Of a stretch of DNA of 64,000 nucleotides, positions 47,853 to 63,884 are shown piece after piece. The notes under the pieces were generated by a model, which was not told the DNA's origin, did no database searches, and saw only the letters and a program-made list of their open reading frames with translations. Both the position numbers and the translations under genes were made by a program. The stretch's first letter is position 1. Every line of letters begins with the position of its first letter. This DNA comes from an uncultured Lachnospiraceae bacterium. Its GTDB lineage: Bacteria > Bacillota > Clostridia > Lachnospirales > Lachnospiraceae. The stretch is from assembly GCA_947243855.1 (NCBI GenBank), contig CAMXIK010000009.1, forward strand, positions 1 to 64,000, read 5' to 3'.

Positions 47853-48230
47853 ATGACGGTGAAACTGTCCGACGCAGAGTATGAAATTATGAAGATCATT
47901 TGGGAAAAACGGGAGCAAACGACTTTATTTTCTTATATCATGGATGAGCTGGCGAGGCAAGGAAAGCCCTGCCCCAAAAATACGTTGATTGTCCTTTTGT
48001 CCCGGCTTGTGGGGAAAGGATATTTAAGCGCAACGAAAATCGGGCGGCGGAATGAATATACGGCGCTTATATCGGAAGCGGAATATCAGATGACGCAGAC
48101 CCAGAATTTTATTGATAAGGTTTATGAAGGAAGCGTGAAAGGGCTGGTTACGAATTTGATTGCTGGAGATTTGCTCAGCGATGAGGAATACGAAGAGCTT
48201 AAGAAGCTGTTGGAAGGAGGCCGGGGTTGA
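47853..48230 (+). CDS. BlaI/MecI/CopY family repressor
   Basis: 125-residue winged-helix repressor with SDAEYEIMKIIWEKRE at the N-terminus and a C-terminal dimerisation helix that is cleaved in MecI/BlaI on induction. It should bind the dyads at 47754-47806 and repress itself and the M56 peptidase gene. Start at 47853 with GGAGG six bases upstream. Downstream gene starts two bases after its stop. Confidence 0.92.
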   Translation: MTVKLSDAEYEIMKIIWEKREQTTLFSYIMDELARQGKPCPKNTLIVLLSRLVGKGYLSATKIGRRNEYTALISEAEYQMTQTQNFIDKVYEGSVKGLVTNLIAGDLLSDEEYEELKKLLEGGRG

Positions 48231-48232
48231 TA

Positions 48233-50200
48233 ATGAATAGGATGTTTTTAACCGTTTTGTCTATGTCGGTTTCCGGCGCGCTGCTTATTTTGGGATTGCT
48301 TTTTATTAGTTGGCTATTGCGGACAAAGTGTAGCCGCCGTTGGCAGTATTATATCTGGCTGCTTGTGATTGCAAGGCTGCTGCTTCCTTTTGGGCCGGAA
48401 ATAAGCCTGATGGGACGCGTTTCCGAAGCGGTGAATCGGGCCGCTGCGGCGGACGGGGCTGTTTCAGAGCAGAGGGTCTGGCAAAATTCATATGCGGATT
48501 TCAGTGAAATCGGAGAAGCAGGGGCGGCCGATTCGGTGCAGAAGACGAACAATTACTGTTTTGGGCTGATCTGGTTTACAATTGCATTAGGAATGCTGGC
48601 ACGCAAGATTGTAAAATACCAGAGCTTCATACGTCATGTAAAGACAGGGGCGGAGCCGGTTTCCGATCAAGTCCTGTTAAACAGGCTTTTTGAGGCACAG
48701 TGGCGGGCGGGGATTAGAAAAAAGACGGAGCTTTTTGTAAATCCGATGGTTTCTTCGCCGATGCTGATTGGATTTTGGAGGCCTTGTATTGTGCTGCCGG
48801 GTACAGACATGTCCGAAAAGGATTTTCGATATGTTGTGACCCATGAGCTTATGCATGAAAAACGGAAGGATATTCTCTATAAATGGTTGGTGCAGTTTAC
48901 AGTCTGCTTGCATTGGCTTAATCCACTGGTGTATGTGATGAGCCGCGAAATTAGTAAAGCCTGCGAGCTTTCCTGCGATGAAGCGGTTTTGGAAAAACTG
49001 GGATATGAACATGCGGCAGATTACGGAAAAACTCTGCTTGACGCTATGGCGGCGGTTGGGAAATACAAAGAACCTTTTGCAGGGGTCTCATTGAGCGCTA
49101 ATAAACGGATATTAAAAGAAAGGCTGGGTGCGATTATGAACGATAAGGAAAAATCTGGGAAGATGAGAATTTTGATGGCCGGTTTGACGGCGTGCATGGC
49201 TTTGGGAGTATTTTTTGTCGGGATTTATCCGGCGGACAGGGCCGAGGCCTCGGGATCTTCTGTGGCAGGCGTTTCCGAAAAGAAAGAACAAATGGATGCG
49301 GAACGTTTTTATGAAGCGGGGAACCTGCCTTTGTTTGAGATGGCGTTTGATAAATTGGATGAAAAGGTGCAGGAGGAATGGCTTGACAGAATTTATAGAG
49401 ACGGGGAAATAGCTTTCTTTTCTATCAGCGTGGAGCGGTTTAACGCTGACAGTCCGCTAATGCAGTCCTTTGCAGAGAAAGCCTATGAGGATGACAATAT
49501 TTCCGTTTTTTGCATTCTGGCGGGTGCAATGAAAGAGGAACTGTTGGAGGGATGGCTGGATCAGGCATTGGCGGATGAGAAGTGGAATTTTCAGTCGGTA
49601 ATCTATGACGAGCTGGGCTGGAAAGAAGAGCAGGACGATCTGGAAAAGGCTTTGGAAGAGGAGCAACTGGAAGAATATCGGGCGGTAGGCATCACAAAAA
49701 AGGGAAAAAACTATTATTATAAAGAACAGCTTATCTATATTTTTCTGGATATTCATAAGCCGGACGAATCGTTCTATACGTTGAATATGAATCCGGCAGG
49801 AACAGTTAATGTGAAAATACTCCGTGGAGAGGACGGAAAGATCGTCGGCGCGGCATATATGACCGAGGCGGAGGTGACCGAGCTGTTGGGAGACATGTAT
49901 GGAGAGGATTTGGACAAAGAAAAAACGGATGAGGAAGTTAGGAAGGAGTTTCCCCGGACAATGGTAGTAAAAAACCGTGTGTGCAAGATCAGGGAAGGCG
50001 CGGGCGTAGAATATAGTGTTGTCGGTTTGGCAGCGGAAGGAGAAAAACTTACTGTACTGGGAAGCGAAGAGGGGAGCAACGGACAGCTTTGGTATCGTCT
50101 CGATAGAGAGTCTTTTGGGGAGAAGCTGGATGATTCCGTGAAAACATGCTATATTCGAGCGGATTTATTGTGGGAAGAGTCGGATGAAGCAGGAGATTAG
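48233..50200 (+). CDS. BlaR1/MecR1-like M56 peptidase with SH3-like tail
   Basis: 655 residues. Three or four N-terminal membrane segments frame a cytosolic M56 zinc protease with HELMH near residue 204 and a downstream ELSCDEAVLE that supplies the third ligand. A further membrane segment near residue 310 leads to an extracytoplasmic region of about 330 residues. That region lacks a recognisable penicillin-binding domain; it contains Glu/Asp-rich helices and ends in a bacterial SH3-like domain (about 575-650, KNRVCKIREGAGVEYSVVG). It likely senses cell-wall state and cleaves the BlaI-type repressor. Confidence 0.85.
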   Translation: MNRMFLTVLSMSVSGALLILGLLFISWLLRTKCSRRWQYYIWLLVIARLLLPFGPEISLMGRVSEAVNRAAAADGAVSEQRVWQNSYADFSEIGEAGAADSVQKTNNYCFGLIWFTIALGMLARKIVKYQSFIRHVKTGAEPVSDQVLLNRLFEAQWRAGIRKKTELFVNPMVSSPMLIGFWRPCIVLPGTDMSEKDFRYVVTHELMHEKRKDILYKWLVQFTVCLHWLNPLVYVMSREISKACELSCDEAVLEKLGYEHAADYGKTLLDAMAAVGKYKEPFAGVSLSANKRILKERLGAIMNDKEKSGKMRILMAGLTACMALGVFFVGIYPADRAEASGSSVAGVSEKKEQMDAERFYEAGNLPLFEMAFDKLDEKVQEEWLDRIYRDGEIAFFSISVERFNADSPLMQSFAEKAYEDDNISVFCILAGAMKEELLEGWLDQALADEKWNFQSVIYDELGWKEEQDDLEKALEEEQLEEYRAVGITKKGKNYYYKEQLIYIFLDIHKPDESFYTLNMNPAGTVNVKILRGEDGKIVGAAYMTEAEVTELLGDMYGEDLDKEKTDEEVRKEFPRTMVVKNRVCKIREGAGVEYSVVGLAAEGEKLTVLGSEEGSNGQLWYRLDRESFGEKLDDSVKTCYIRADLLWEESDEAGD

Positions 50201-50308: not shown

Positions 50309-50548
50309 ATGTTACCAGAAAAAGAGATCAAAAGCGTGGAGGAACTTGAGTTTGTAATTTTTTGTATAGAAAATATTGCAGAAAACCTTAAAAAAAATGC
50401 GGATCAGATATATATTGATTTGACAGAAAAGAGCACTATTTTGCATGATTATATTGTGCCTGAATATGAAATGTTGCATACACAGAGCAAGGAGTATATT
50501 ATCAACGATATTATTGAGGTAATGAAAGAAAGAGGTGTGGAGGGATGA
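50309..50548 (+). CDS. DUF3791 protein (first copy)
   Basis: 79-residue protein with predicted helices; matches DUF3791 (EELEFVIFCIENIAENL and the later YIVPEYEMLHTQSKEYIIND). First gene of an overlapping trio: its TGA overlaps the next ATG (ATGA). DUF3791 proteins are regularly encoded beside DUF3990 proteins. Position and size fit an antitoxin or accessory protein, but no function has been shown to my knowledge. Confidence 0.8.
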   Translation: MLPEKEIKSVEELEFVIFCIENIAENLKKNADQIYIDLTEKSTILHDYIVPEYEMLHTQSKEYIINDIIEVMKERGVEG

Positions 50549-51018
50549 TCTTGTACCACGGTTCTTACATGGAAATTCGTGTGCCTGATTTAGAGCATTC
50601 CAGACTTAATGTGGATTTTGGGCGCGGATTTTACACAACGCCCATTTATGATCAGGCGGTGAGTTGGTGTGAAAAATTTAAGAGACGGGGTAAGGAAGGG
50701 ATTGTTTCCAGCTATGAATTTAATGAAAATGCATATAATGAATGCAGGGCGATGATTTTTCAATCATATTCGGAGGAGTGGCTTACTTTTATTTTGAACT
50801 GTCGCAGTGGTAAAGATACTTCTGATTATGATATTGTAACGGGCGGAGTAGCCAATGATAAAGTATTTAATACAGTAGAATTATATTTGGATGGACTTAT
50901 TGATAAAGTAGAGGCAATCAATAGACTGCGATATGAAAAACCAAATTTGCAGATTTGCTTTCGGACAAAGAACGTTCTTCAGAAATATGTACATTTTAAA
51001 AGGAGCGAGCGGGTATGA
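50545..51018 (+). CDS. DUF3990 protein (ADP-ribosyltransferase-like fold)
   Basis: 157 residues. The N-terminus LYHGSYMEIRVPDLEHSR followed by VDFGRGFYTTPIYDQAVSW matches DUF3990, which belongs with ADP-ribosyltransferase-like folds: the His-Gly pair could bind NAD and GRGFYTT corresponds to the second strand. A later acidic candidate lies in FNTVELYLDG. Flanked by two DUF3791 genes and overlapping both by four bases, it is the likely toxin or effector of the trio. Target unknown. Confidence 0.8.
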   Translation: MILYHGSYMEIRVPDLEHSRLNVDFGRGFYTTPIYDQAVSWCEKFKRRGKEGIVSSYEFNENAYNECRAMIFQSYSEEWLTFILNCRSGKDTSDYDIVTGGVANDKVFNTVELYLDGLIDKVEAINRLRYEKPNLQICFRTKNVLQKYVHFKRSERV

Positions 51019-51227
51019 ATGCGAACCCAATTTTACTGCAAAAAAAATATGCGCGTTTGGTTGAAGGGTTATCTGCACAGACGGGGCTTTCTCTCGATAC
51101 TGCGCTGTCATTTTTTTACCATTCGCAATGCTATCGGCTGATCAGTGAGGGGGTTTCTGACATGCATTGTATGAGCGATAAATATTTAGTGGAAGATTTG
51201 ATGAGGGAATATGGGGAAAGTCATTAA
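51015..51227 (+). CDS. DUF3791 protein (second copy)
   Basis: 70 residues, helical, matching DUF3791 (YARLVEGLSAQTGLSLDTAL, HCMSDKYLVEDLMREYG). It starts with ATG overlapping the TGA of the DUF3990 gene, so its translation is coupled. The sequence is clearly diverged from the first copy, suggesting the two act at different sites or on different states of the central protein. Confidence 0.78.
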   Translation: MNANPILLQKKYARLVEGLSAQTGLSLDTALSFFYHSQCYRLISEGVSDMHCMSDKYLVEDLMREYGESH

Positions 51228-51907: not shown

Positions 51908-52055
51908 ATAAAAAGACCTCGCATTACTGCGAGGTCTTAAATTTTGAATGAAATAGGTGGGGTGACATTTCCCACATCTCCAACTTGGGTGACGGCTGCC
52001 CGTTCCGTCCTCTGCTTTCATTCAGTATATCATATGTATTCGTGGTTTTCCCATA
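51908..52055 (-). ncRNA. Candidate structured small RNA
   Basis: On the minus strand a promoter (52090-52062) is followed by a region folding into a closing stem TGAATGAAA/TTTCATTCA (52024-52016 with 51953-51945), two inner hairpins GACGG/CCGTC (52009-51991) and GTGGG/CCCAC (51975-51957), and then a strong terminator with T5. This gives a transcript of about 148 bases shaped like a three-way junction. A short open frame starting MKAEDGTGSRHPSW crosses it, but continues past the terminator, so coding is less likely. I match it to no known RNA family. Confidence 0.5.
51913..51938. terminator. Terminator shared by the XRE gene and the small RNA
   Basis: Perfect ten-base stem AAGACCTCGC (51913-51922) and GCGAGGTCTT (51929-51938). 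On the minus strand it is followed by TTTTTATT, making it strong in that direction and weaker on the plus strand. Confidence 0.8.
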
Positions 52056-52136: not shown

Positions 52137-52808
52137 TTATTTTTCAAAAAACAATAGCGCAGTCACGGTAAAGATATTACCATCCACCTCCATTTCCAGA
52201 CTGCCATTATATTTTTCCACTTTTTCGCGCACATTGCGCAGGCCGATTCCGTGATGGCGCGCGTCGGCTTTGGTGGTAGGGAAGATACCGAACAGCTTGC
52301 GGGGCGGGATGCATGGATTTTGTATTTTGATAATCAGAAATTGATGGATTCTGCGCAGAGTTACTTCTATGCACGGCGGGTTGCCAGTCTGCCGCATATA
52401 GCGCAGACTGGCTTCCATAGCATTATCCAGTAAATTGAATAAAATGACGCAGAGATCGTCCGAGGTGATATTGCAGTCTTTGGGAAATTCCGCATTTACG
52501 TCTATTTCGATTCCTTTGCGCTGTGCATCGAGTACGGCGTGATTTAAGATGGCGTCCACAATGTCAACGCCGCTCCAAGTCATATCGGACAACTCATTGA
52601 TGGGAGCGCTGATCGAGTTGACGTACTCGGAAATTTCCGGAATGTTATTTTTAGCGGCAAGGTGATAAATCATCTGTAGGTGGTGATTCATGTCGTGGTA
52701 TAGACGTTCGTTTTTTTGGTAAAGATCAGTGAGAAGGTGGTAATTTTCTTCCAATACCTGATTTTTCCGTTCCAAAAACCTGATTTTGTTTTTGCGTGTT
52801 TGTAACAT
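52137..52808 (-). CDS. Soluble GHKL-domain histidine kinase
   Basis: 223-residue kinase core without the N-terminal membrane sensor domain of AgrC-like kinases. A short coiled coil leads to the phospho-acceptor box ERLYHDMNHHLQMIYHLA, then NLLDNAMEAS (N-box) and HGIGLRNVREKVEKYNGSLE (G-box). Partner of the LytTR regulator encoded eight bases upstream. The missing sensor means the signal must be cytosolic or come through a partner protein, or the gene is a truncated form that still functions. GAGGG precedes the start. Confidence 0.85.
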   Translation of the reverse strand: MLQTRKNKIRFLERKNQVLEENYHLLTDLYQKNERLYHDMNHHLQMIYHLAAKNNIPEISEYVNSISAPINELSDMTWSGVDIVDAILNHAVLDAQRKGIEIDVNAEFPKDCNITSDDLCVILFNLLDNAMEASLRYMRQTGNPPCIEVTLRRIHQFLIIKIQNPCIPPRKLFGIFPTTKADARHHGIGLRNVREKVEKYNGSLEMEVDGNIFTVTALLFFEK

Positions 52809-52816
52809 ATTACCCT

Positions 52817-53575
52817 CTATATTTTATTTTTCCAATAGATGTTCAGCTTCTTTTTAAATTCTGGCAGGCGGCTCTGGGAGACCGGCAGGTGCGTCTGATC
52901 TGTAAGAATGCAGTCGGTGTGGGAGATTCCAGATACATGCCGCAGATTTACGATGTACCCGCGCTCAATAAAATAAAATTCTTCAGAGTTTAGTTCTTCA
53001 AAGATTTCTGTAAGCGTTTTTCGAATGCGCCGGGTTTGAGCCGTTTTGCCTTCTGTCTGGCTGGTTTCTGGGTTTTCGGCAGCGGCAGTATGAAAAATTG
53101 CATTTTTCCCTTCTTTTTCAATATAAAATATTTCTTTCAGGGGAATCCGTTCCAGACGGTTTTGACTGCTGATAATATAGGAGTCCGTATTCTGGATTTC
53201 CAGAAGAGAAGCGGCGTCTTTCAGGGCATGGGGCAGCCGCTCTTTTAGTTGGTTTTTGGGAATATAGCGAAAAATATGGAGCGCATAGGCGTCCACGGCA
53301 TATTTATAGTGGGCGGTCACAAAGATCATCAGTGCGTCGGGCAGCAGGGCGTGAATTTGTTCAGCCAGTTCCATCCCGGACAAACCGGGCATCTCTATAT
53401 CGAGAAGCAGAAGATCAAAATGTTTGCCGTCCTGAATTTCATAGAGGAGCGCCTTGCCGTCTGTGAAAGCGGACAGAATGGAAAATGCCTGCTGTTGTCG
53501 TAGACAGTCCTCCGTAATTTTTTTAATTTCGTCTAAAAGCAACGGTTCGTCGTCGCAGATTCCGATTTGCAGCAT
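52817..53575 (-). CDS. LytTR-family response regulator
   Basis: 252 residues. Receiver domain with CDDEPLLLDE, phospho-Asp in LLLLDIEMPGLSGME and a receiver end FRYIPKNQLKERLP in which the usual Lys is followed by Asn, then LytTR domain (about 140-250) with FYFIERGYIVNLRHV. Start at 53575 chosen by family comparison. Divergent from the ABC exporter operon, with 99 bases to the mini-ORF; direct repeats AGTATAAAT (53599 and 53610) lie between. Probably controls the exporter genes. Confidence 0.87.
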   Translation of the reverse strand: MLQIGICDDEPLLLDEIKKITEDCLRQQQAFSILSAFTDGKALLYEIQDGKHFDLLLLDIEMPGLSGMELAEQIHALLPDALMIFVTAHYKYAVDAYALHIFRYIPKNQLKERLPHALKDAASLLEIQNTDSYIISSQNRLERIPLKEIFYIEKEGKNAIFHTAAAENPETSQTEGKTAQTRRIRKTLTEIFEELNSEEFYFIERGYIVNLRHVSGISHTDCILTDQTHLPVSQSRLPEFKKKLNIYWKNKI

Positions 53576-53598
53576 AACTATCCCATTTTCCTTACTAT

Positions 53599-53618
53599 AG
53601 TATAAATTCAGTATAAAT
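53599..53618. promoter_or_regulatory. Direct repeats between regulator and exporter operon
   Basis: AGTATAAAT at 53599-53607 and 53610-53618, 11 bases apart, in the divergent promoter region. They contain TATACT-type -10 sequences on the minus strand and could also be regulator contacts. The 11-base period differs from the usual LytTR 21. Confidence 0.4.
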
Positions 53619-53674
53619 AATATTCCCCATACATGCAATGAAAATTAAAGGACAAAAAAGGGGGATTGGAGGAC

Positions 53675-53725
53675 ATGAAAAACAAATGCCTATTTTTTGT
53701 GATATATTATGTTTGTAGCCAATAG
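53675..53725 (+). CDS. Sixteen-residue hydrophobic mini-ORF (leader peptide or signal)
   Basis: ATG at 53675 with a near-perfect GGAGG site encodes MKNKCLFFVIYYVCSQ. The core is hydrophobic with two Cys nine residues apart. It lies in the leader of the ABC exporter operon, 79 bases before the first exporter start. By analogy with leader peptides of heterodimeric multidrug ABC genes such as bmrB before bmrCD, it may control the operon by ribosome stalling; alternatively it is an exported peptide. No direct proof of translation. Confidence 0.5.
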   Translation: MKNKCLFFVIYYVCSQ

Positions 53726-53785
53726 CAGTATACAGGGTGAAGCCTGCGAGCCTGAAAAGCAGAAAGTTTTTCGGGCTTATACTGC
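53726..53785 (+). promoter_or_regulatory. Folded leader upstream of the ABC exporter operon
   Basis: GCAGTATA (53726-53733) pairs with TATACTGC (53778-53785). Inside, CAGG/CCTG forms one hairpin and AGCCTGAAAA with TTTTTCGGGCT a second, longer one. The three-way junction starts at the mini-ORF stop codon and ends 19 bases before the start codon of the exporter, with an AAAGGAG site between. No T-tract, so control would be translational or by RNA stability. Confidence 0.55.
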
Positions 53786-53804
53786 AAGGAAAAAGGAGAA
53801 CGCC

Positions 53805-55604
53805 ATGAAAGACGGATTTTTATACCGAACATTTTCATCTTGTAAATTTGCGCTGAAAGTTGGATGGAATATCAGCAGGAAGCGGGTCATTCTGGAATTT
53901 TTACATTGGGCGTTCCTGTACGTGGACTGGCTTTTGGTTTCCTGTGTCTTAATCCGCTTTATTCTTGATATGGCGATGAAGCAGACTTCTTTTAAAAAAA
54001 TGATGGTGTATGTCTGGAGCGTTGTGGTCTTGGAAGCGGGGCTGAAAATATTCAGCCGGTATTTCGAGACCTATGTTAAGCCGGTTACGGATGTTAAGCT
54101 GTACGACGGAATCAACAAAATGTTGTATGACAAGGCGTGTCAGGTGGATATGCGCTGTTTTGAGGACAGCGAGTTTTATAATGAGTATATGATGGCGGTT
54201 AGTCTGGCGCATACGAAGCTGCCAGAGACGTTGGAAGGAGTGTGTCAGATTCTGGCAAGGTTTATCGCCATGATCAGCGGGATGCTTATTATCTATCAGA
54301 TTGACCGTCTGGCGGCGTTGTTTATCATTTTTCCAATTCTCGGCAACTTTGTTTTTTATGGCGTTTTAAACAGCCGGCTCTTCCGCATGGAAAGGGAAAA
54401 TATTATCTTTCAGAGAATGGCGGACTACGTGAACCGCACGATTCATCTGGGCGAGTATGCCAAGGAAATACGAATGACCAATGTATTTTGTCTGCTGAAA
54501 AAGCAGTATGACAGGGCGGTTTTTGCCATTCGGAAAGTGATCGGAAAATATTCTCTGGGAAATATGATACTTTTTTGGCTGTTTCAATATTTTACGTTTA
54601 CTCTGCTGCAGGAGGGGGCTGTGCTTTATGCTGGATACCGGGTGTTGGTCAGCGGTACCATGGTATTTGCCCAGATGGCGGTAATCCAGACAACCATGAA
54701 TTCGAATACGTGGACGCTGATCGGGTTTGCGGATTCGGTGATGGTTATTGTGAAAAACGGTTTGTATTTGGAACAGACGAGAAATTTTTTACAGTACGAG
54801 CCGGCAATTCCGGAGGATCAGGAGGGGCTGCTTCCACAGCTTCCGATCCGCTCTGTGGAGTTTGAGCATGTGTCCTTCGGTTACAAAGAAGGCGGATATG
54901 TATTGAAAGATATTCATTTTAAGATAGAAGGAAATCAGAGCGTGGCGCTTGCGGGATATAATGGCGCAGGGAAAAGTACGCTGATAAAACTGCTTATGCG
55001 GCTTTATGACCCGGTGGAGGGACGGATTCTGGTGAATGGCGTTGATATCAGGGAATATCAGGTGAAGGCTTACAGGGATTTATTTTCCGCTGCATTTCAA
55101 AACGGAAAGATTTTTGCCAATACCATTGAGGAGAATATTTTGATGGGGCAGCACACAGATCAGGAGGGAGATCAGGCAAGAATAGAGTGGGCGCTCAGGC
55201 TGGCGGATATGTATGAGGAAGTGGAGAGCCAGCCGTTTCAGGAGAAGACGATTCTTACCCGTGAGTTTTCTAAGGAAGGCGTGGTATTTTCCGGCGGGCA
55301 GAATCAGAAGATACTGGCGGCAAGAGCCTTTGCGAAGGACAGTCCGATCGCCGTGTTTGATGAGCCCAGCAGCGCCCTTGACCCGATTGCGGAACAGCAT
55401 CTGTTTGAAAATATCAGGGAGTACGGGAAAGAGCGGATTTTATTTTTTATTTCCCACAGATTATCTTCCGTGCGGGATGCAGATGAGGTTTTTTACCTGA
55501 AAAATGGACGGATTCGGGAACGGGGGTCTCATGCCGAATTGATGAACCGGAATGGAGAGTACGCTTCCTTATACAGACTACAGGCAGAGAACTACCAGAC
55601 GTAA
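53805..55604 (+). CDS. ABC exporter half-transporter A (type IV)
   Basis: 599 residues: six membrane helices (1-330) and a C-terminal nucleotide-binding domain. Walker A GYNGAGKSTLIKLL, Q-loop FQNGKIF, signature VFSGGQNQKILAARAF, Walker [14 protein letters not shown] with catalytic Glu, and H-loop FFISHRLSS are all intact. Start at 53805 with AAAGGAG upstream, after the mini-ORF and folded leader. A close paralogue (A') lies two genes downstream. Likely forms a heterodimer with the next gene product and exports a drug, lipid or peptide. Confidence 0.9.
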   Translation: MKDGFLYRTFSSCKFALKVGWNISRKRVILEFLHWAFLYVDWLLVSCVLIRFILDMAMKQTSFKKMMVYVWSVVVLEAGLKIFSRYFETYVKPVTDVKLYDGINKMLYDKACQVDMRCFEDSEFYNEYMMAVSLAHTKLPETLEGVCQILARFIAMISGMLIIYQIDRLAALFIIFPILGNFVFYGVLNSRLFRMERENIIFQRMADYVNRTIHLGEYAKEIRMTNVFCLLKKQYDRAVFAIRKVIGKYSLGNMILFWLFQYFTFTLLQEGAVLYAGYRVLVSGTMVFAQMAVIQTTMNSNTWTLIGFADSVMVIVKNGLYLEQTRNFLQYEPAIPEDQEGLLPQLPIRSVEFEHVSFGYKEGGYVLKDIHFKIEGNQSVALAGYNGAGKSTLIKLLMRLYDPVEGRILVNGVDIREYQVKAYRDLFSAAFQNGKIFANTIEENILMGQHTDQEGDQARIEWALRLADMYEEVESQPFQEKTILTREFSKEGVVFSGGQNQKILAARAFAKDSPIAVFDEPSSALDPIAEQHLFENIREYGKERILFFISHRLSSVRDADEVFYLKNGRIRERGSHAELMNRNGEYASLYRLQAENYQT

Positions 55605-55679
55605 CATAAAAGGTACTTCTACAGACGTTCCGTCATGGGACAGGAGTAAGAATAAATGAGGAAAGGAAGTTATACAGCA

Positions 55680-57482
55680 ATGAAAGAAACGCTTACATGG
55701 CGGCAGACGATCGCGCAGCAATGGTATTTGGCGAAGTTTTGTTTTAAACATGCGCCGGGATTTATGGCATACCATTTGTTTGAGGCGGTCAAGCTGCAGG
55801 TTTCCATATTCTTTGAATTTACCTTTACGGTGAATTATGTTCTGACCGTGGCGGAAGAAGGCGGGGACTTTCGGAAAATCCTGTGGTGCATGGGCATTTT
55901 AATGGGAGCGATCGCCGTCTCTACGGTAACTTTTGCCATCTATAAGCACTATGTATTTCCGCGAGGGAAACAGACGTTGTATCAGGCGCTGCGATTAGAG
56001 ATTTATGAGAAATCAAAAGAAATCGATCTGTCCTGTTATGACGATAAGGATTTTTATGAGAACTTTATTCTGGCGACGGAGGAGACGGACCGTTGTCTGG
56101 ATCGTTTTCTGGTTTTTGAAAATTCTATTATTGCGCGCTCGGTCGGTATTACATGCACTCTCGTTTACTGTACCTATATTAATCCGATAGCCCTGCTTAT
56201 TTTAGCGGTCGTTCTGCCTTTTGAGTTATTCTGTGTTTTGCAGGAGAATAAGAAGGCGGTGGCAGCCCGGATGGAGCGGCTGCCCCATGAACAGCAGCGA
56301 GAGTATGGGAACCGGGTATTTTACTTGACTGATTATGCCGGGGAACTGCGCCTGTATCCGCAGATGAAGGAGGAATGCCGCAGAGAGTATGCGGAAGAAA
56401 ATCACAAAATAGAAGAGGTCAATAAAAAGTACGGGAAATCATTATTTGTTTATAGCCTGCTTCGGGAGGGATGTTTGGCCCGTCTCGTCAAGGAGGGCGC
56501 TGTCTGGACGCTTCTTCTGTACCAGATGCTTGTTTTACGGGTGTTGTCCGGGGCGCAGCTTGTCACGAGCCGTTCCTGTATCTGGCGGGCTTCCAACAAT
56601 ATAGAAATCGTAATTACCAGTTTTCGGACTGTGGCGGAAAATTCGGCTTATATTTATCGGATCAGGGAATTTTTGCAGATGGAGCCGACAATCGTATCAA
56701 GAGGGGAAAAATCTGTGCCGGAAGGCAGCGGCAGCCTTTCGGTGGAGCATGTGGATTTCGGTTATCTCCCCGGAAAGCAGGTATTAAAGGATGTGACTTT
56801 GAACGTCGAGGCGGGACAGAAAATCGCACTGGTAGGCTATAACGGCTCAGGGAAAACCACGCTGGTCAAGCTGCTGCTGCGGTTATACGATCCCGACGGG
56901 GGAAGAATCTGCTATCATGGAAAGGATATTCGGGATTATCAGATTATGGCATATCGGCGCAGCATTGGCTCCGTGTTCCAAGATTTTAAGATTTACGCGG
57001 CCACGCTGAAAGAGAATGTGTTAATGGACGTAGAGGATGGAAGCCGGGAGGAAAGCTATCTGGTGGAACAGGCGTTGTACGACGCGCATTTTACGCTGGA
57101 AGATAACAGGCTCTCCTATCAGATTGAGACGCCGCTTACGACGGAATTTGAAAAAGACGGGATCAATTTGTCTGGCGGGGAGGCGCAGAAGGTGGCCATT
57201 GCCCGTACGCTTTACCGGAAGCAGAACTTGATTATTATGGATGAACCGAGCAGTGCGCTCGATCCCTTGGCGGAATACCGTCTCAATCAGGAATTAAACG
57301 AGATCGCAAAGGATAAGACCGTGATTTTCATTTCCCACAGGCTGTCCACAGTGCGGGATGCGGATTGTATTTATATGATGGAAAATGGGAAAATTGTGGA
57401 AGCCGGCACGCACGAGGAACTGCTTTCCAGAGGCGGCAAGTATGCGGCCATGTGGAGGGTGCAGGCGGGGCTGTATGCATAG
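55680..57482 (+). CDS. ABC exporter half-transporter B
   Basis: 600 residues with six membrane helices and an ATPase domain: Walker [16 protein letters not shown]-loop VFQDFKIYAA, signature [16 protein letters not shown], Walker [15 protein letters not shown]-loop FISHRLST. All catalytic residues are present, which is unusual for a heterodimer where one site is often degenerate. The start is ambiguous: ATG 55656 has AGGAG nine bases upstream, while 55680 matches the start of paralogue B'. Follows half-transporter A by about 75 bases. Confidence 0.88.
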   Translation: MKETLTWRQTIAQQWYLAKFCFKHAPGFMAYHLFEAVKLQVSIFFEFTFTVNYVLTVAEEGGDFRKILWCMGILMGAIAVSTVTFAIYKHYVFPRGKQTLYQALRLEIYEKSKEIDLSCYDDKDFYENFILATEETDRCLDRFLVFENSIIARSVGITCTLVYCTYINPIALLILAVVLPFELFCVLQENKKAVAARMERLPHEQQREYGNRVFYLTDYAGELRLYPQMKEECRREYAEENHKIEEVNKKYGKSLFVYSLLREGCLARLVKEGAVWTLLLYQMLVLRVLSGAQLVTSRSCIWRASNNIEIVITSFRTVAENSAYIYRIREFLQMEPTIVSRGEKSVPEGSGSLSVEHVDFGYLPGKQVLKDVTLNVEAGQKIALVGYNGSGKTTLVKLLLRLYDPDGGRICYHGKDIRDYQIMAYRRSIGSVFQDFKIYAATLKENVLMDVEDGSREESYLVEQALYDAHFTLEDNRLSYQIETPLTTEFEKDGINLSGGEAQKVAIARTLYRKQNLIIMDEPSSALDPLAEYRLNQELNEIAKDKTVIFISHRLSTVRDADCIYMMENGKIVEAGTHEELLSRGGKYAAMWRVQAGLYA

Positions 57483-57495
57483 TTGTGGAGGACAT

Positions 57496-59295
57496 ATGAA
57501 AGAAAATTTTGTGTATCGCACAATTTCATCCTGCAAATTTGTATTAAATACTGCATGGGTGATCAGCAAAAAACGGGTTGTTCTGGAGTTTCTGCATTGG
57601 ATTTTTGTATATGTGGACTGGCTGCTTGTCTCCTGTGTTTTAATTCGCTTTATTCTTGATCTGGCAATGAAGCGGACGTCCTTTGAGAGAATGATGCTGT
57701 ATGTTGGCAGCGTTGTGCTCTTGGAAGCTTTGCTTGAACTGTTCAGCCTGTTTTTTGAGGTGTATGTTAAACCGATTACAGACGTGGAATTGTATGACGG
57801 CGTCAACAAAATGTTGTATGATAAGGCGTGTCAGGTTGATTTGCGCTGCTTTGAGGACAGCGAGTTTTACAATGAGTATATGATGGCGGTTAGTCTGGCG
57901 CATGTAAAACTGTCGGATATGTTACAGGGCGTTTGTCAGATCGTGGCAAGATTTAGCGCTATGATCGCAGCGGCGGTTATTATCTATCAGATGGATCATT
58001 TGGCGATTCTTTTTGCTCTTTTTCCGATTCTGGGAAATTTCGTTTTTTATGGTGTTTTAAACGGCAGAATCTTTCGTATGGAGAAAGAAAATATTGTTTT
58101 TCAGAGAATGGCTGATTACGTGAACAGGACGCTTCATCTGGGGGAATATGCGAAAGAAATACGGATGACGAATGTATTTCGTTTGCTGAAAAAGCAGTAT
58201 GACGGAGTGATTGCTTCCATACAGAAAGTAATTGCCCGGTATTCGTTGGGAAATATCATTCTTTTCTGTATGTTCCAGTATTTTATCTTTTTGCTGCCGC
58301 AGGAAGGAGCAGTTCTCTATTCCGGCTATCGTGTATCGGTCACTGGGACGATGGTTTTTGCGGAAATGGCGGTCATTTTGACGGTCATGAATGAAAATAC
58401 ATGGATTTTGAATGAATTTGTGGATGCGGTGATGGTTATCGTAAAAAATGGATTGTATATCGAGCAGACGAGACATTTCTTGGAGTATGAGCCAGCGATC
58501 CCGGAAGATCAGGAGGGGCTTATGCCGCAGCTTCCGATTCGTACAGTGGAGTTTGAACATGTGTCCTTCGGTTACAAGGCGGACGGTTATGTGTTAAAGG
58601 ATATCCATTTTAAGATAGAGGGCAATCAGAGTGTGGCGCTGGCGGGTTATAACGGCGCAGGCAAAAGCACGCTGGTGAAACTATTGATGCGGCTTTATGA
58701 TCCAGACGAAGGACGGATTTTGGTGAACGGGATTGACATTCGGGAATATCAGGTAAAGGCGTATCGGGATCTGTTTGCCACAGCATTCCAGAATGGCAAG
58801 ATTTTTGCGGACACCGTCGAGGAGAATGTGCTGATGGGACGGCATACGACGTTGGAGGAAGATAGGAAAAAGGTGCGGCAGGCGTTGAAGCTGGCGGATA
58901 TGAGTGAGGAGATAGAAAAACAGTCCTTGCAGGAAAAAACGATTCTCACCCGTGAGTTTTCTAAGGAGGGCGTGGTGTTTTCCGGCGGACAAAACCAGAA
59001 GATATTGGCGGCAAGAGCCTTTGCGAAGGACAGCCCCATTGCGGTGTTTGACGAACCCAGCAGCGCGCTTGATCCTCTTGCGGAGTACCATTTATTTGAG
59101 AATATAAAAGAGTATGGAAAGAACAGAATTTTGTTTTTCATTTCCCACAGGCTGTCGTCCGTTCGTGATGCGGATGTTGTGTTTTATCTAAAAAACGGCA
59201 GGATTCAGGAGAGCGGATCGCACGGTGAACTGATGGAACGGAATGGGGAGTATGCTTCGCTGTATCGGCTGCAGGCGGAGAATTACAGGGGTTAA
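57496..59295 (+). CDS. ABC exporter half-transporter A' (paralogue of A)
   Basis: 599 residues, same length as A and nearly identical in many stretches (for example YDGxNKMLYDKACQVD and CFEDSEFYNEYMMAVSLAH). Intact Walker A GYNGAGKSTLVKLL, signature VFSGGQNQKILAARAF and Walker [15 protein letters not shown]. Divergence is highest in membrane helices 3-6, which line the substrate path, so substrate range may have split after duplication. Starts 13 bases after B with GGAGG upstream. Confidence 0.9.
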   Translation: MKENFVYRTISSCKFVLNTAWVISKKRVVLEFLHWIFVYVDWLLVSCVLIRFILDLAMKRTSFERMMLYVGSVVLLEALLELFSLFFEVYVKPITDVELYDGVNKMLYDKACQVDLRCFEDSEFYNEYMMAVSLAHVKLSDMLQGVCQIVARFSAMIAAAVIIYQMDHLAILFALFPILGNFVFYGVLNGRIFRMEKENIVFQRMADYVNRTLHLGEYAKEIRMTNVFRLLKKQYDGVIASIQKVIARYSLGNIILFCMFQYFIFLLPQEGAVLYSGYRVSVTGTMVFAEMAVILTVMNENTWILNEFVDAVMVIVKNGLYIEQTRHFLEYEPAIPEDQEGLMPQLPIRTVEFEHVSFGYKADGYVLKDIHFKIEGNQSVALAGYNGAGKSTLVKLLMRLYDPDEGRILVNGIDIREYQVKAYRDLFATAFQNGKIFADTVEENVLMGRHTTLEEDRKKVRQALKLADMSEEIEKQSLQEKTILTREFSKEGVVFSGGQNQKILAARAFAKDSPIAVFDEPSSALDPLAEYHLFENIKEYGKNRILFFISHRLSSVRDADVVFYLKNGRIQESGSHGELMERNGEYASLYRLQAENYRG

Positions 59296-59358
59296 ATCGA
59301 GTATGGCTCGGTTACGAGATTTGCCCCGCGAATTTGGAGTTGGGGGAAAGGAAGAAAT

Positions 59359-61176
59359 ATGACGAAACTTACATGGCGGCAGACGGCGGCGCAGCAGTGG
59401 TATCTTACAAAATTCTGTTTCAAACAAACGCCGGGATTTATGGCGTTTCATCTGTTTGAGAGCATCGAGATACAGATTTCCATTTTCATAGAGTTTGTAT
59501 GGATGGTAAATTATGTGCTGACGGCAGTGGAACAGGGCGAAGGTTTTGGAAAAATTTTGACTTGTATGGGGTATTTAATCATATTTTTCGGATTTTTTAC
59601 GATTCCTTACGGGCTTTACCACCACTATGCGCTTCCCAGAAAGAAGCAGGTATTATATCAGGCATTCCGCATGGAGATCTATGAAAAGGCAAAAGAAATT
59701 GATTTGTCCTGTTATGACGATAAGGATTTTTATGAAACTTTTATTTTGGCAACGGAGGAAACGGACCGCTGTATCGACAGGTATTTGAGTTTTGTATACA
59801 CTGCGGCGGGGCAGACGGTTAGTATCTTGTGCGCGGTATTTTATTGCGCCTATATCAATCCGATGGCTTTGCTTGTTGCCGTGGTTTTGCTGCCCTTTGA
59901 ACTGTTCTGTGTGATGCTGGAAAGCAAAAAGGCGGTGGCTGCACGGATGGAGCGACTGTCCTATGAACAGAAACGGGAATATGGAAACCGGGTATTCTAT
60001 TTGTCTGATTATGCCGGTGAGCTTCGCTTATATCAGCAGATGAAAGGGAAATGCCGGAAAGATTACGAAGAATCCAATGCGCAGATACGCTCTATAAATA
60101 AGAAATTTGGAAAGCAGCTATTTTTATACGGCTTGATTCATAGAGTATTTCTGTCCAGAGTTGTGAAAGAGGGCGCGGTCTGGTTCATTCTGCTCTATCA
60201 GATGCTTGTTATACGGGCGCTGTCGGGAGCGCAGCTTGTTACAAGCCGTTCCTGTATTTTTCGGATAAGTAACAGTACGAAATACTTGATAGATAGCTGC
60301 AAGACGGCGGCGGAAAACGCGGCTTATATTTCCCGAATCAGGGAGTTTTTGCAGATGGAGCCGACGATTATTTCAAAAGCGGAAAAACCTGTGCCAGAGA
60401 GCAGCGGGAGTCTTTTGGTAGAGCATGTAAATTTCGGTTATCTTCCCGGAAAGCAGGTGCTAAAGGATGTGACGTTTGCCGTCGAGCCGGGACAGAAAAT
60501 CGCGCTGGTGGGTTACAACGGTTCGGGTAAGACTACGCTGGTAAAACTCTTGCTGCGATTATATGATCCCGACAGCGGAAAAATATGTTATCATGGAAAT
60601 AATATTCAGGACTATCAGGTGATGGCATACCGACGCAGCATCGGTTCCGTGTTTCAGGACTTTAAGCTCTATGCGGCTACCCTTAAGGAAAATGTGTTGA
60701 TGGATGTGGGGGATGGCAGCCGGGAGGAGAGTTATCTGGTGGAGAGGGCATTATATGACGCGCATTTCACCTTGGATGACAACCGTCTTTCTTACCAGAT
60801 CGAAACGCCGCTTACGGCGGAATTTGAAAAAGACGGGGTGAATCTGTCCGGCGGGGAAGCCCAGAAAGTGGCCATTGCCCGCACGCTTTACCGAAGACAG
60901 AATCTAATTATTATGGATGAACCGAGCAGCGCGCTCGATCCCTTGGCGGAATACCGTCTCAATCAGGAATTAAACGAGATTGCAAAGGATAAGACCGTGA
61001 TTTTCATTTCCCACAGGCTGTCCACAGTGCGGGATGCGGACTGTATTTATATGATGGAAAACGGGCGGATTGTGGAGTCCGGCACCCATGAAGATTTGCT
61101 GGCAGGGGAAGGCAGGTATGCGGCCATGTGGAGGATGCAGGCGGGGTTGTATGCGGATGCGTTTCCGTATGCGTGA
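59359..61176 (+). CDS. ABC exporter half-transporter B' (paralogue of B)
   Basis: 605 residues, paralogue of B (shared LTWRQTxAQQWYLxKFCFK start, [15 protein letters not shown] and the ATPase domain). Walker [15 protein letters not shown], signature [16 protein letters not shown], Walker [16 protein letters not shown] intact. Membrane region more divergent than the ATPase domain. AAAGGAAG precedes the ATG at 59359. Completes the A-B-A'-B' tandem; nfo follows after 19 bases. Confidence 0.9.
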
Positions 61177-61195
61177 AATAGAAAAGGAGCTTAAC

Positions 61196-62071
61196 ATGCA
61201 AAAGATTAAAATTGGTTCTCATGTGAAAATGGCTGGAAAAGAAATGTTTCTGGGATCGGTAAAAGAAGCCGAATCCTATGGCGCAAACGTCCTAATGCTC
61301 TATACGGGAGCGCCGCAAAACACGGTGAGAAAAGAGATTGAGGAGCTGAATATAGAGGCTGGATGGGAATATGCGGATAAGGCGGGAATTGAGGAAATTG
61401 TGGTACACGCGCCTTACATTATTAATCTGGGAAATACTACGAAGCCGGAAACCTTTGAACTGGGAGTGACTTTTCTTGAAAAGGAGATCAAAAGAACGGC
61501 GGCCATGCGCAGTAACGTTTTGATCCTGCATCCGGGCGCACATGTGGGCGCGGGAGAAGAGGCTGGACTGGCGCAGATTATAAAGGGGCTTAACCTCGTG
61601 TTGGATAAGAATGAAGATAACGTTTTTGTCGCCTTGGAAACGATGGCGGGAAAGGGAAGCGAACTAGGGAAAACGTTTGAAGAATTACAAATGATTTATG
61701 ACGGCGTACACAAAAAAGACAGGCTGCGCGTCTGCTTTGACACCTGTCATGTGAGCGACGCCGGATATCATTTAGTTGAGGATTACGAAGGGGTGCTGCG
61801 GCAGTTTGATGAAGTGATCGGGTTAAATCAGATCGCGGTGATACATATCAACGACAGCATGAACCCTTGCGGGGCGCACAAAGACCGCCATGCTAATATT
61901 GGGAAGGGATATATCGGGACGGATATCTTAAAACAGATTGTTCATGACGAGAGGTTTTCCCGAATACCGAAAATTTTGGAAACACCGTGGATTTGTGAAG
62001 ATGGGAGTAAGGAGAAAACGATTGCGCCGTATAAAGAGGAAATTGCGGCGTTGTTACATAAAGGAGACTGA
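61196..62071 (+). CDS. nfo: Endonuclease IV
   Basis: 291-residue TIM-barrel AP endonuclease, full length. Zinc-ligand motifs: IGSHVKMAG near the start, [39 protein letters not shown] and [20 protein letters not shown]. Cleaves DNA at abasic sites, a second AP endonuclease beside exonuclease III at 13.2 kb. Start at 61196 with AAAGGAG upstream. Only 19 bases behind the last ABC gene, so it may be read from the same message. Confidence 0.96.
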
Positions 62072-62072
62072 T

Positions 62073-62936
62073 ATGGGAATAAAACTGAACCCCGGCGATA
62101 AAGCAGGGATTGTATGTTGTTCTAACGGTTGGAAAAGGGAAAAAAACAAACAGATTCGTTTACAGGAGGCTTTGTTAAAGATACCGCTCACACCGGTTTT
62201 TTCCCCGTATATTATGGAGCGGGACAGCGTGGAAAGCGGGAGTCCCATGGAGCGGGGGCAGGCCCTGATGGATTTTTACCGGGATGATTCTATTCGGTCA
62301 ATCTTTGATATTTCTGGCGGAGATATCGCCAACGGGATTCTGCCCTATCTGGACTACGACGTGATTGCGGGCAGCGATAAGCTGTTTTGGGGCTACAGTG
62401 ATTTAACAACGGTTATCAACGCCATTTATACGAAAACGGGAAAGGCTTCCGTGCTGTATCAGATCTGCAATCTGCTCTATGAACATGGGGAGGAACAGCA
62501 GAAACATGTGCGGGACACCATATTTGGAAACGGGGAGGCGTTGTTTACATTTCCCTACGAGTTTTTGCAGGGCCAAGGAATGGAGGGCGTTGTAGTTGGC
62601 GGAAACGTCCGCTGTTTTTTAAAACTGGCGGGAACATTTTATTTTCCGGATTTACAAGATAAAATTCTGCTGTTGGAGTCTTTGGGTGGGACAGCGGCGC
62701 AGATGCTCACTTATTTCAGCCAATTGCAGCATCTTGGAGTATTCGAGCGGGTGCGCGGGATTCTGCTTGGTACCTTTACGCAGATGGAGCAGGAGCTGTG
62801 CAGGCCAGATGTGTGGACATTGCTCCAGCGGTTTATCGGAACAACGCTTCCTGTGGCAAAGACGGCATATATTGGCCACGGGCCGGACTCGCGGGCAATT
62901 ATGGTGGGGGAATATAGGCGGTTTGAGCAGAAATAA
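62073..62936 (+). CDS. S66 family peptidase (LD-carboxypeptidase/MccF-like)
   Basis: 287 residues. The nucleophile Ser is in the LFWGYSDLTTVINAIY elbow near residue 107; ISGGDIANGILPYLD and the late catalytic Glu/His region (LLESLGGTAAQM, YIGHGPDSRAIM) match family S66. Members either trim murein peptides (LD-carboxypeptidase A) or hydrolyse peptide antibiotics as MccF does. Sitting behind an ABC exporter quartet, a self-protection role is possible, but cell-wall trimming is the default. Starts one base after nfo. Confidence 0.88.
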   Translation: MGIKLNPGDKAGIVCCSNGWKREKNKQIRLQEALLKIPLTPVFSPYIMERDSVESGSPMERGQALMDFYRDDSIRSIFDISGGDIANGILPYLDYDVIAGSDKLFWGYSDLTTVINAIYTKTGKASVLYQICNLLYEHGEEQQKHVRDTIFGNGEALFTFPYEFLQGQGMEGVVVGGNVRCFLKLAGTFYFPDLQDKILLLESLGGTAAQMLTYFSQLQHLGVFERVRGILLGTFTQMEQELCRPDVWTLLQRFIGTTLPVAKTAYIGHGPDSRAIMVGEYRRFEQK

Positions 62937-62984: not shown

Positions 62985-63077
62985 TTTATTTCGGCCTTTT
63001 TTATAATATTAAGAAAGACCGGATAAGACGCTTGTCAAATGGATAGAGATAACCAAGATTTAAAATGGAGGCACAGC

Positions 63078-63884
63078 ATGACGCTTGGAGAAAAAATATA
63101 TCAATTAAGAACAGAGCAAGGGTTTTCACAGGAAAGCTTGGGAGAGAAGCTTGGGGTTTCCCGCCAGTCGGTATCAAAATGGGAGACGGATCAGTCGATT
63201 CCGGAGCTGGATAAGATTGTGGCTGTCAGCGAGATTTTCGGGGTCAGCACAGATTACCTCTTAAAAGAAACAGGGGAGCGTTATGACCGGGCGGAGAGGA
63301 AAGCGTGGACACAGGACCAAGCGCCAATACGGGAAGAATACCGCGGCAGTTATCGAAGAGGCCACTATGAATATAAGAGTAAAAAAATGGTGGGAAATCT
63401 GCCGCTTGTGCATATCAATGTGGGAGCGGGATTATATCGGGCAAGAGGTGTTATCGCGATAGGCGCGATCGCGCAAGGCGGTCTTGCCATCGGTTTTGTA
63501 GCCATGGGTGGTCTGGCAGTCGGGCTGCTCTCATTTGGATTGTTTGCCATTGCCACTTTGGCCTTTGGGCTGCTTGCTTTCGGTAGTCTGGCGGTTGGCG
63601 TCATCAGCATGGGCGCTTTTTCTTTCGGTATTTTTTCCATGGGGGCGATGGCTTTCGGACAGTTCGCTTTTGGGGCCTCAGCCCACGGCGCGCAGGTGGC
63701 GGTAGGAGATGCCGCCAGTGGGAAAATTGCGTTGGGATATTCCCGAGCCGTCGGTACATATACGCAGATCAGCAATAGACAGCCTTTTGACTATGAAAGC
63801 GCCTGCCGCATGATCGACGAGCAGGTATCTTCAAACTGGCTCTTTTTTAAGAGCTGGGCAAAGGCTATGGTAAAGTGGTTTTAG
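63078..63884 (+). CDS. XRE-family protein with five-residue glycine repeat domain
   Basis: 268 residues. Helix-turn-helix at residues 5-60 ([21 protein letters not shown]), a basic, Tyr-rich linker, then residues about 125-205 made of a repeat with Gly every fifth position and small or hydrophobic residues between ([35 protein letters not shown] and so on, about 15 units). The repeat is too regular for ordinary membrane helices and may form a beta-solenoid or membrane-inserted bundle. C-terminal 50 residues are soluble. Start at 63078 with GGAGG upstream. Confidence 0.82.

Follow-up and report, generated by a model that had tools for sequence, protein, structure and literature searches.

What does a run of four half-transporter genes export, and what controls it, when its only obvious companions are a regulator and a kinase encoded on the opposite strand? 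The question is raised by a locus in a 64,000-nucleotide stretch of an uncultured Lachnospiraceae bacterium (contig CAMXIK010000009.1, assembly GCA_947243855.1), which is referred to here as the window and whose coordinates are used throughout. It belongs to a 3.58 Mb draft genome, the named near relatives of which are mostly Lachnospiraceae metagenome-assembled genomes (MAGs), with some Roseburia. The original prediction, drawn from the letters of the window, was of a duplicated heterodimeric ABC exporter, in the order A-B-A'-B', accompanied by a mini-gene, a folded leader and a divergent regulator pair. We consider it somewhat probable that the locus is an inducible efflux module under cytosolic control, perhaps with two substrate ranges, a joint statement weighted towards its anatomy; the regulatory anatomy itself can be proposed with considerable confidence. 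No description of a LytTR-controlled duplicated exporter module was found in the literature searched, which lay mostly outside subscription journals. Other sources consulted were PMC4227749, PMC12323615 and PMC8895600.

The exporter is encoded by four consecutive genes on the + strand, namely A (53805..55604, 599 aa), B (55680..57482, 600 aa), A' (57496..59295, 599 aa, starting 13 bp past B) and B' (59359..61176, 605 aa). The first-listed start of A, at 53709, gives an over-long open reading frame (ORF), and 53805 is the likely start. A pattern search located the Walker A, signature, Walker B and H-loop motifs in all four subunits and the Q-loop in three of them, that of A' (TAFQN) being read from the translation; in A and A' the ATPase motifs are GYNGAGKS, FSGGQ, FDE and ISHRL. 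Together with the frames and the ABC_tran matches, these motifs bear out the prediction of four complete half-transporters with all four ATPase sites intact. The Pfam ABC_membrane model was unmatched in the exporter at 1e-3; the B profile nonetheless covers Sav1866 over 57-592. The intergenic gaps measure 75, 13 and 63 bp, and the list of terminator-like sites holds no + strand site in any of the three, which makes a single transcript likely. Two adjacent genes, each joining a membrane part to an ATPase domain, are also described for the heterodimeric multidrug ABC exporters of Gram-positives LmrCD, PatAB, EfrCD, BmrCD and TM287/288. These mostly have one degenerate ATP site (PMC4997860), whereas the subunits of the quartet all carry consensus motifs. 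The quartet is also distant in sequence from exporters of the LmrCD/PatAB type, none of the 25 best NCBIfam matches per subunit having reached its cut-off.

Upstream of A, and reading away from it, lie the genes for a response regulator with a LytTR DNA-binding domain (52817..53575, - strand, 252 aa; Response_reg 5e-17, LytTR 6e-14) and for a short GHKL-type histidine kinase (52137..52808, - strand, 223 aa; HATPase_c_5 2e-20). A census was made of 77 genomes of the genus, which are related to one another, with thresholds of E≤1e-200 for A and E≤1e-60 for the kinase. Both were present in the identical 14 genomes, so that the divergent pair of the prediction can be counted as part of the module. 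All 13 other close loci having both genes share the divergent arrangement of the window (loci and genomes are cited by L and G numbers), and it is kept despite up to 2 kb of other genes in between. In three outlying loci (L053, L054 and L067) the LytTR and GHKL genes are instead convergent behind B, and in L053 and L054 the operator described below still lies upstream of A, with one mismatch each. In a fourth outlying locus, that of UBA7160 (L051), A has the operator with one mismatch and no LytTR/GHKL gene was matched within the 11 kb examined; a whole-genome search located the short kinase (63%) and its LytTR partner (56%) on another contig (L152), between other genes and more than 7 kb from its start. 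Since the operator stays at A when the regulators sit behind B or on another contig, it belongs to the exporter, and the regulators would act on it in trans. Conservation of the quartet together with its regulators, which had also been envisaged, held only in part. Two A copies (E≤1e-200) occur in five of the 14 exporter genomes, and G466 (L045) provides a sixth, damaged quartet. One of the quartets, that of L039, belongs to a cultured relative, Bacterium 1xD42-87. The constant core of the module is A-B, the operator and LytTR/GHKL.

The putative LytTR-type operator (53644..53675, + strand) has the form ATTAAAGGACA-N10-ATTGGAGGACA, with a 21-bp period, and consists of two repeats with the consensus RTTNRRGGACA, at 53644-53654 and 53665-53675. 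Twenty related loci were compared, and in all 19 of those tabulated, L067 being left out of the table, the repeats recur with a 21- or 22-bp period and at most one mismatch. In its own genome the pattern was found at one place with up to two mismatches allowed, and there it has none. Downstream lies a predicted extended -10 element (53700..53708, + strand, TGATATATT), which would place the transcription start at about 53715. A TGN-type -10 is present in 19/19 tabulated loci, with its hexamer 26-28 bp from the second repeat, and this geometry stays fixed while the distance from the -10 to the start of A varies from 31 to 165 bases. Assuming a 17-bp spacer, the second repeat ends 4 bp ahead of the -35 slot (53680-53685), which has no -35 consensus. 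By sequence and spacing, the locus would thus pair a LytTR regulator with a direct-repeat operator. A study of such systems (PMC6193735) describes operators of 9-bp repeats 12 bp apart (in a minority 11 or 13), located 4-11 bp upstream of the -35, which is the repeat geometry seen at the exporter, and an extended -10 in the hdrRM promoter. The HdrRM and BrsRM systems of that source share with the module the repeat spacing, the extended -10 and, in some cases, linkage to ABC transporters. The module differs from them in having no membrane inhibitor protein beside the regulator, which instead has a receiver domain and a GHKL kinase as its partner.

The space between the LytTR gene and the operator is also an insertion hot spot, occupied in four loci (L039:8158-8702, L041:8090-8398, L047:7046-8688 and L055:7347-8723) by genes named mostly by eye, such as MazEF-like genes, acetyltransferases, a deaminase, a HIT protein and a second S66 gene. 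These insertions leave the operator intact.

The same anatomy accounts for the 16-codon hydrophobic ORF that had been proposed as a gene (53675..53725, + strand, string MKNKCLFFVIYYVCSQ). It overlaps the operator, the -10 and the transcription start: its apparent Shine-Dalgarno sequence, GGAGG, is part of the second operator repeat, and its codons FVIYYV are read through TTTTTTGTGATATATTATG, the extended -10. Given this coincidence with the conserved operator and -10, the predicted transcription start falls inside the ORF. Moreover, the ORF exists in the window only, being absent from the other 18 of the 19 tabulated loci; at its start position L041 and L052 have an ATG followed immediately by a stop, and the other 16 have no start codon. 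The ORF is, as judged from the sequence, a misread promoter and operator and not a gene. What is corrected here is likely an annotation trap, in which a conserved operator and -10 read as a small membrane peptide.

The regulatory input is suggested by the kinase. Its H-box (LYHDMNHHLQ), N-box and G-box are invariant in 15 of 15 aligned copies, and the stretch from FLE(R/K)KN to the H-box is highly conserved; the ends of this alignment were chosen from the matches. Its open frames span 227-263 aa in the 14 exporter genomes. In a search of 60 genomes, the 10 close copies corresponded to frames of 228-249 aa, and all the weaker matches listed (≤43% identity) to frames of 327-495 aa. No hydrophobic N-terminal part was seen in the 15 aligned copies, by reading and not by a membrane predictor, so that by length and reading the kinase is no polytopic membrane sensor; a search with its profile gave no relative of solved structure at E≤0.001. 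Therefore, the prediction of a soluble kinase stands as far as frame length and reading can carry it, and the protein seems to be cytosolic and, judging from its distribution, dedicated to the exporter. It may respond to a ligand in the cytosol or else to contact with the exporter. The module would also resemble the flux-sensing BceAB-BceRS systems, in which a kinase with no input domain is tied to one transporter; it differs from them in both partners, since the kinase BceS sits in the membrane and the transporter belongs to a different ABC type.

The next question was how the second pair arose and what it is for. In the window A' is 80% identical to A and B' is 76% identical to B, which, together with the trees, supports the predicted origin by duplication of a two-gene unit, the event being an old one. 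In whole-protein trees, which carry a warning of long outgroup branches, the A' of four genomes form one clade (100/100), and so do the B' (100/99). In G001 (L049/L066) it is the copy beside the regulators that lies closer to A'/B' (A, 88/93; B, 100/99). Alignment per domain, envisaged when the duplication was first proposed, revealed that the membrane parts have diverged more than the ATPase parts. Trees of the membrane parts, from which the long rows L051 and L067 were omitted, recovered the A' and the B' of four genomes each as a clade (100/99 each). Trees of the ATPase parts did not recover these clades: in that of B, both G001 copies pair with each other (94/88), and the B' of L039 groups with the single B of L042 and L050 (93/85).

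The identities follow the same boundary. B and B' of the window are 66% identical over the first 340 residues and 89% over the rest; across genomes the figures are 65-67% and 85-92%, and B orthologues remain at 84-92% in both parts. A and A' are 76-78% identical in the membrane part, where A orthologues reach 89-93%, and 83-85% in the ATPase part. Comparing 14 first copies or singles with the four second copies from four species (the fifth quartet, L049, was left out), paralogue-diagnostic sites in membrane versus ATPase parts numbered 50 versus 0 in B and 34 versus 7 in A; they are located at about 61-100, 141-160 and 301-320 in B and at about 241-320 in A. At the DNA level, the ATPase parts of B and B' of the same genome are 83.6% (window), 84.0% (L039), 83.9% (L041) and 79.3% (L045) identical; in all four genomes B is nearer its own B' than the B' of the other three, by 0.8-1.3 points, and in three of the four B' is nearer its own B. 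This likeness hints at gene conversion, while not proving it genome by genome.

A clue to the recombination came from relatives with a single pair. Against L039, the B gene of L042 is 93-100% identical to B in the first 1000 columns and, in the last 700, 94-100% identical to B', and the DNA downstream of the pair is 99.4% identical to that behind the L039 B'. L040 and L050 present the same switch in a less clean form, with downstream DNA 97.8 and 98.2% identical. The best reading of these single pairs is that B and B' recombined and thereby reduced a quartet to one pair. Finally, G058, in which neither the exporter nor the kinase passed the thresholds of the search, retains a scar (L147:12831-13487) that encodes a 112-residue ATPase end, located 177 bp from a fragment of the XRE gene that lies upstream of the module (94%). 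The best match of this remnant is B' (88%), with B not surely told apart, and the module was deleted in this genome. Close relatives thus offer a natural series of pair, quartet, chimera and deletion scar, by which a division of labour between the membrane part, for specificity, and the ATPase part, as the engine, becomes directly testable.

These observations can be integrated in the following model. The GHKL kinase, lying in the cytosol and with neither a membrane part nor a sensor domain in evidence, would phosphorylate the LytTR regulator, which would bind the tandem ATTnRRGGACA repeats directly upstream of the extended -10 promoter, an anatomy supported by conservation, and would thereby switch on one operon. 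The product of this operon would be the type IV ABC exporter A-B, a heterodimer, joined in some species by a second one, A'-B'; the pairing of A with B is suggested because the A-B order is constant. Over four species the membrane parts of the two pairs have remained distinct, while the ATPase parts of B and B' are still much alike. Recombination between the two B genes, shown for the three collapsed loci and suggested by the small identity margins elsewhere, probably accounts for part of this likeness. Diverged membrane parts joined to alike B ATPase parts would mean two substrate ranges on one engine, and we lean slightly towards such a split between A-B and A'-B'. As no precursor peptide, peptidase or modification enzyme was seen alongside, the likeliest job would be the export of small toxic or amphiphilic compounds sensed inside the cell; the export or drug-resistance role of the prediction is plausible, and detoxification or efflux is a function that we would put just above even. 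Also of interest in the model is a kinase devoted to this module, which has to receive its signal either from within the cell or from the exporter. A bolder version, which we regard as a rather unlikely speculation, is that the kinase, having no membrane or sensor part whatever, monitors from the cytosol how loaded its ABC exporters are or which conformation they adopt. It would drive an array in which recombination keeps the B ATPase halves interchangeable and the membrane halves, acting as a substrate-range cassette, diversify, expand and collapse.

A number of points weigh against this reading. Concerning the duplication, the A' and B' of L045 each contain an in-frame stop, which implies that the second pair is dispensable. 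The inner branches left open in the ATPase trees amount to 12/19 for A and 8/19 for B, a poor resolution in the case of A, whose A/A' ATPase parts are no more alike than those of orthologues (84-90%). Homogenisation is weaker than the trees would imply: the L045 B' is 79.3% identical to its own B and 80.9-82.8% to the B of the other three; only the window and L041 have B/B' values above every orthologue value, the L039 pair (84.0%) falling below the L039/L045 B' orthologue pair (88.2%). MAG assemblies, in addition, may hide or break exporter copies. Concerning the control, L067 has no operator within five mismatches, making the count 19 of 20 loci, and a reversed control pattern also gave one match in the own genome at up to two mismatches. 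When three mismatches are allowed, a second + strand match appears in the window at 58593. The motif was read off close relatives, so its low mismatches are partly by construction and only L051, L053 and L054 are independent. In L046 the frame of the 16-codon ORF is open behind a TTG farther upstream, and in L039, L040, L042 and L050 a GTG frame crosses the -10 into A, which speaks against a promoter-only view; we take these frames as chance. The kinase might serve another partner, and the substrate, the signal and the internal sensing are what we infer. Nor does the wider family, at 40-45% identity, provide any clue to the substrate.

Among the alternatives, plain gene dosage survives best: A-B and A'-B' would handle the same substrates, the second pair only adding capacity. 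It would fit a second pair that is present in only six of the 14 genomes, that is damaged in one of them and that is lost when quartets collapse to pairs. It is confronted by the 50 (B) and 34 (A) sites at which the membrane parts differ consistently over four species, versus 0 and 7 in the ATPase parts, and we consider it improbable, if still the most serious competitor of the split-range model.

A second alternative is that the exporter serves an unlinked or very short peptide, a pheromone or a bacteriocin, with LytTR/GHKL as a reduced quorum circuit of the Agr or ComDE type. LytTR and GHKL pairs, as well as LytTR direct repeats, do occur in peptide-sensing circuits. The AgrCA and ComDE systems share with the module the GHKL kinase, the LytTR regulator and the tandem direct repeats upstream of the promoter, and bacteriocin-export profiles are found among the remote matches of the subunits, all far under cut-off. 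The module differs in its dedication to an exporter, in a kinase with no evident membrane sensor (none was seen in the 15 aligned copies), and in that no pheromone gene was recognised. AgrC and ComD are polytopic membrane sensor kinases, and C39-type bacteriocin exporters carry an N-terminal C39 peptidase domain, which was missing from the Pfam matches of A, B, A' and B'. No precursor gene was recognised in eight gaps between LytTR and A (ORFs of at least 30 aa) or in eight other flank stretches (at least 45 aa); the gaps, read by eye as candidate sites of a cargo gene, hold only unrelated genes, and no cargo peptide, peptidase or modification enzyme was recognised beside the exporter in the gaps and flanks read. 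Peptide signalling is thus quite unlikely.

The search was also extended to the wider family. An A relative at E≤1e-120 is present in 17 of 397 family genomes, G000 included, the relatives outside G000 being 40-45% identical. In the nine more distant loci L068-L076 a LytTR or kinase of this kind was not matched at 1e-15, and in L072 a different LytTR-like ORF lies some 4 kb upstream of A, as seen by eye. No cargo gene was recognised in the wider-family loci, those from L095 to L111 being judged among the ORFs listed. Plasmid relatives were set aside as unhelpful, those among the matches listed being about 27-34% identical.

Behind B' lie nfo (deoxyribonuclease IV; 61196..62071, + strand, NF002196 above cut-off) and a gene for an S66 family peptidase (62073..62936, + strand, Peptidase_S66), as the prediction had stated. 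The adjacency of nfo to the exporter is unique to the window (0/8 other loci whose examined stretch has nfo), and nfo was discarded as a part of the module. MccF, for its part, destroys microcin C as self-protection, and S66 might likewise degrade a toxic peptide within the cell that is at the same time a cargo of the exporter. An S66 gene at E≤1e-60 is present in 11 of the 14 exporter genomes and in 24 of the 63 others, and its close form (at least 68% identity) in 10/14 versus 2/63, one of these two exporter-less genomes being that with the deletion scar. The gene is co-directional and downstream in four of 15 exporter loci (the window, L047, L052 and L055), and between LytTR and A of L055 lies another, distant S66 gene. 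Against this, it lies on the opposite strand in six loci, and none was seen in the examined stretch of the remaining five, although in one of them, L043 (G461), it is co-directional behind A' on another contig. XRE and nfo also accompany it, S66 and nfo occur in G025 with no exporter, and the co-occurrence may stem from a locus common to one clade. Self-protection by S66, as proposed originally, is therefore very unlikely; the gene, with its variable strand and distance, is treated as a frequent neighbour, probably outside the module, with a small chance of a role, and is kept as a weak rival.

The remaining element of the prediction, the folded leader, was confirmed. The structured region (53725..53785, + strand) begins about 10 bases past the predicted transcription start and comprises a closing stem (53725-53731/53779-53785), a small hairpin (53733-53746) and a long hairpin (about 53748-53778). 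Its fold in the window reaches -31.4 kcal/mol (z -3.65), with none of 200 shuffles as good. The fold was obtained in eight of ten loci folded (z -2.3 to -5.4), L043 lacking the small hairpin, and by sequence the leader is also present in L040, L042, L047, L050 and L056, that is, in 13 of 16 close loci in total. In the other three, the region of L044 folds otherwise (z -2.4), L048 gives no signal (z 0.24) and L052 has no room for it (31 bases from the -10 to the start of A), so the leader is dispensable. For the long hairpin, in 11 sequences, 94.5% of cells pair versus 92.5% when shuffled (22/500 as high), three pairs are changed on both sides versus a mean of 1.2 (33/500), nine further pair types occur versus 8.0 (133/500), and the covariation score is 0.236 versus 0.182 (1/500), with slid controls at or below 0.137; support for this pairing is moderate. 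The role of the leader may be stabilising or translational. ErmCL has the stall motif IFVI, which FFVI in the 16 codons of the window resembles, and a strong hairpin separates these codons from A. Attenuation, in which a leader peptide would sense ribosome-targeting drugs and the hairpin would gate A, as in the BmrCD or erm leaders (it is described for PatAB and mentioned for BmrCD in PMC4319486), is nevertheless the least probable alternative of all, because the ORF is absent in the 18 other loci and starts some 40 bases upstream of the predicted transcription start, the terminator-like site list for the window holds no site at the leader, and the hairpin is missing in L044, L048 and L052.

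Some further features of the flanks deserve mention. Between the kinase and an XRE gene lies a skipping-rope RNA (Rfam, 50.7 bits; 51950-52019, - strand), flanked by a promoter-like site (52090-52062, - strand) and a terminator-like site (51938-51913, - strand), so that it may be an independent small RNA. It also occurs in L041, L045 and L052 (three of seven relatives searched), at varying distance from the kinase, and was rejected as a part of the module. A DUF3791-DUF3990-DUF3791 trio (50309-51227, + strand), its last match falling just under cut-off, looks like a toxin-antitoxin type unit and was also matched in L043, L045 and L052. Farther out, a BlaR1-type M56 peptidase protein (48227-50200, + strand) has an SH3-like tail just under cut-off, and on the other side of the exporter the C-terminal half of an XRE-type protein (63039-63884, + strand) includes a hydrophobic stretch that is repetitive and rich in glycine.

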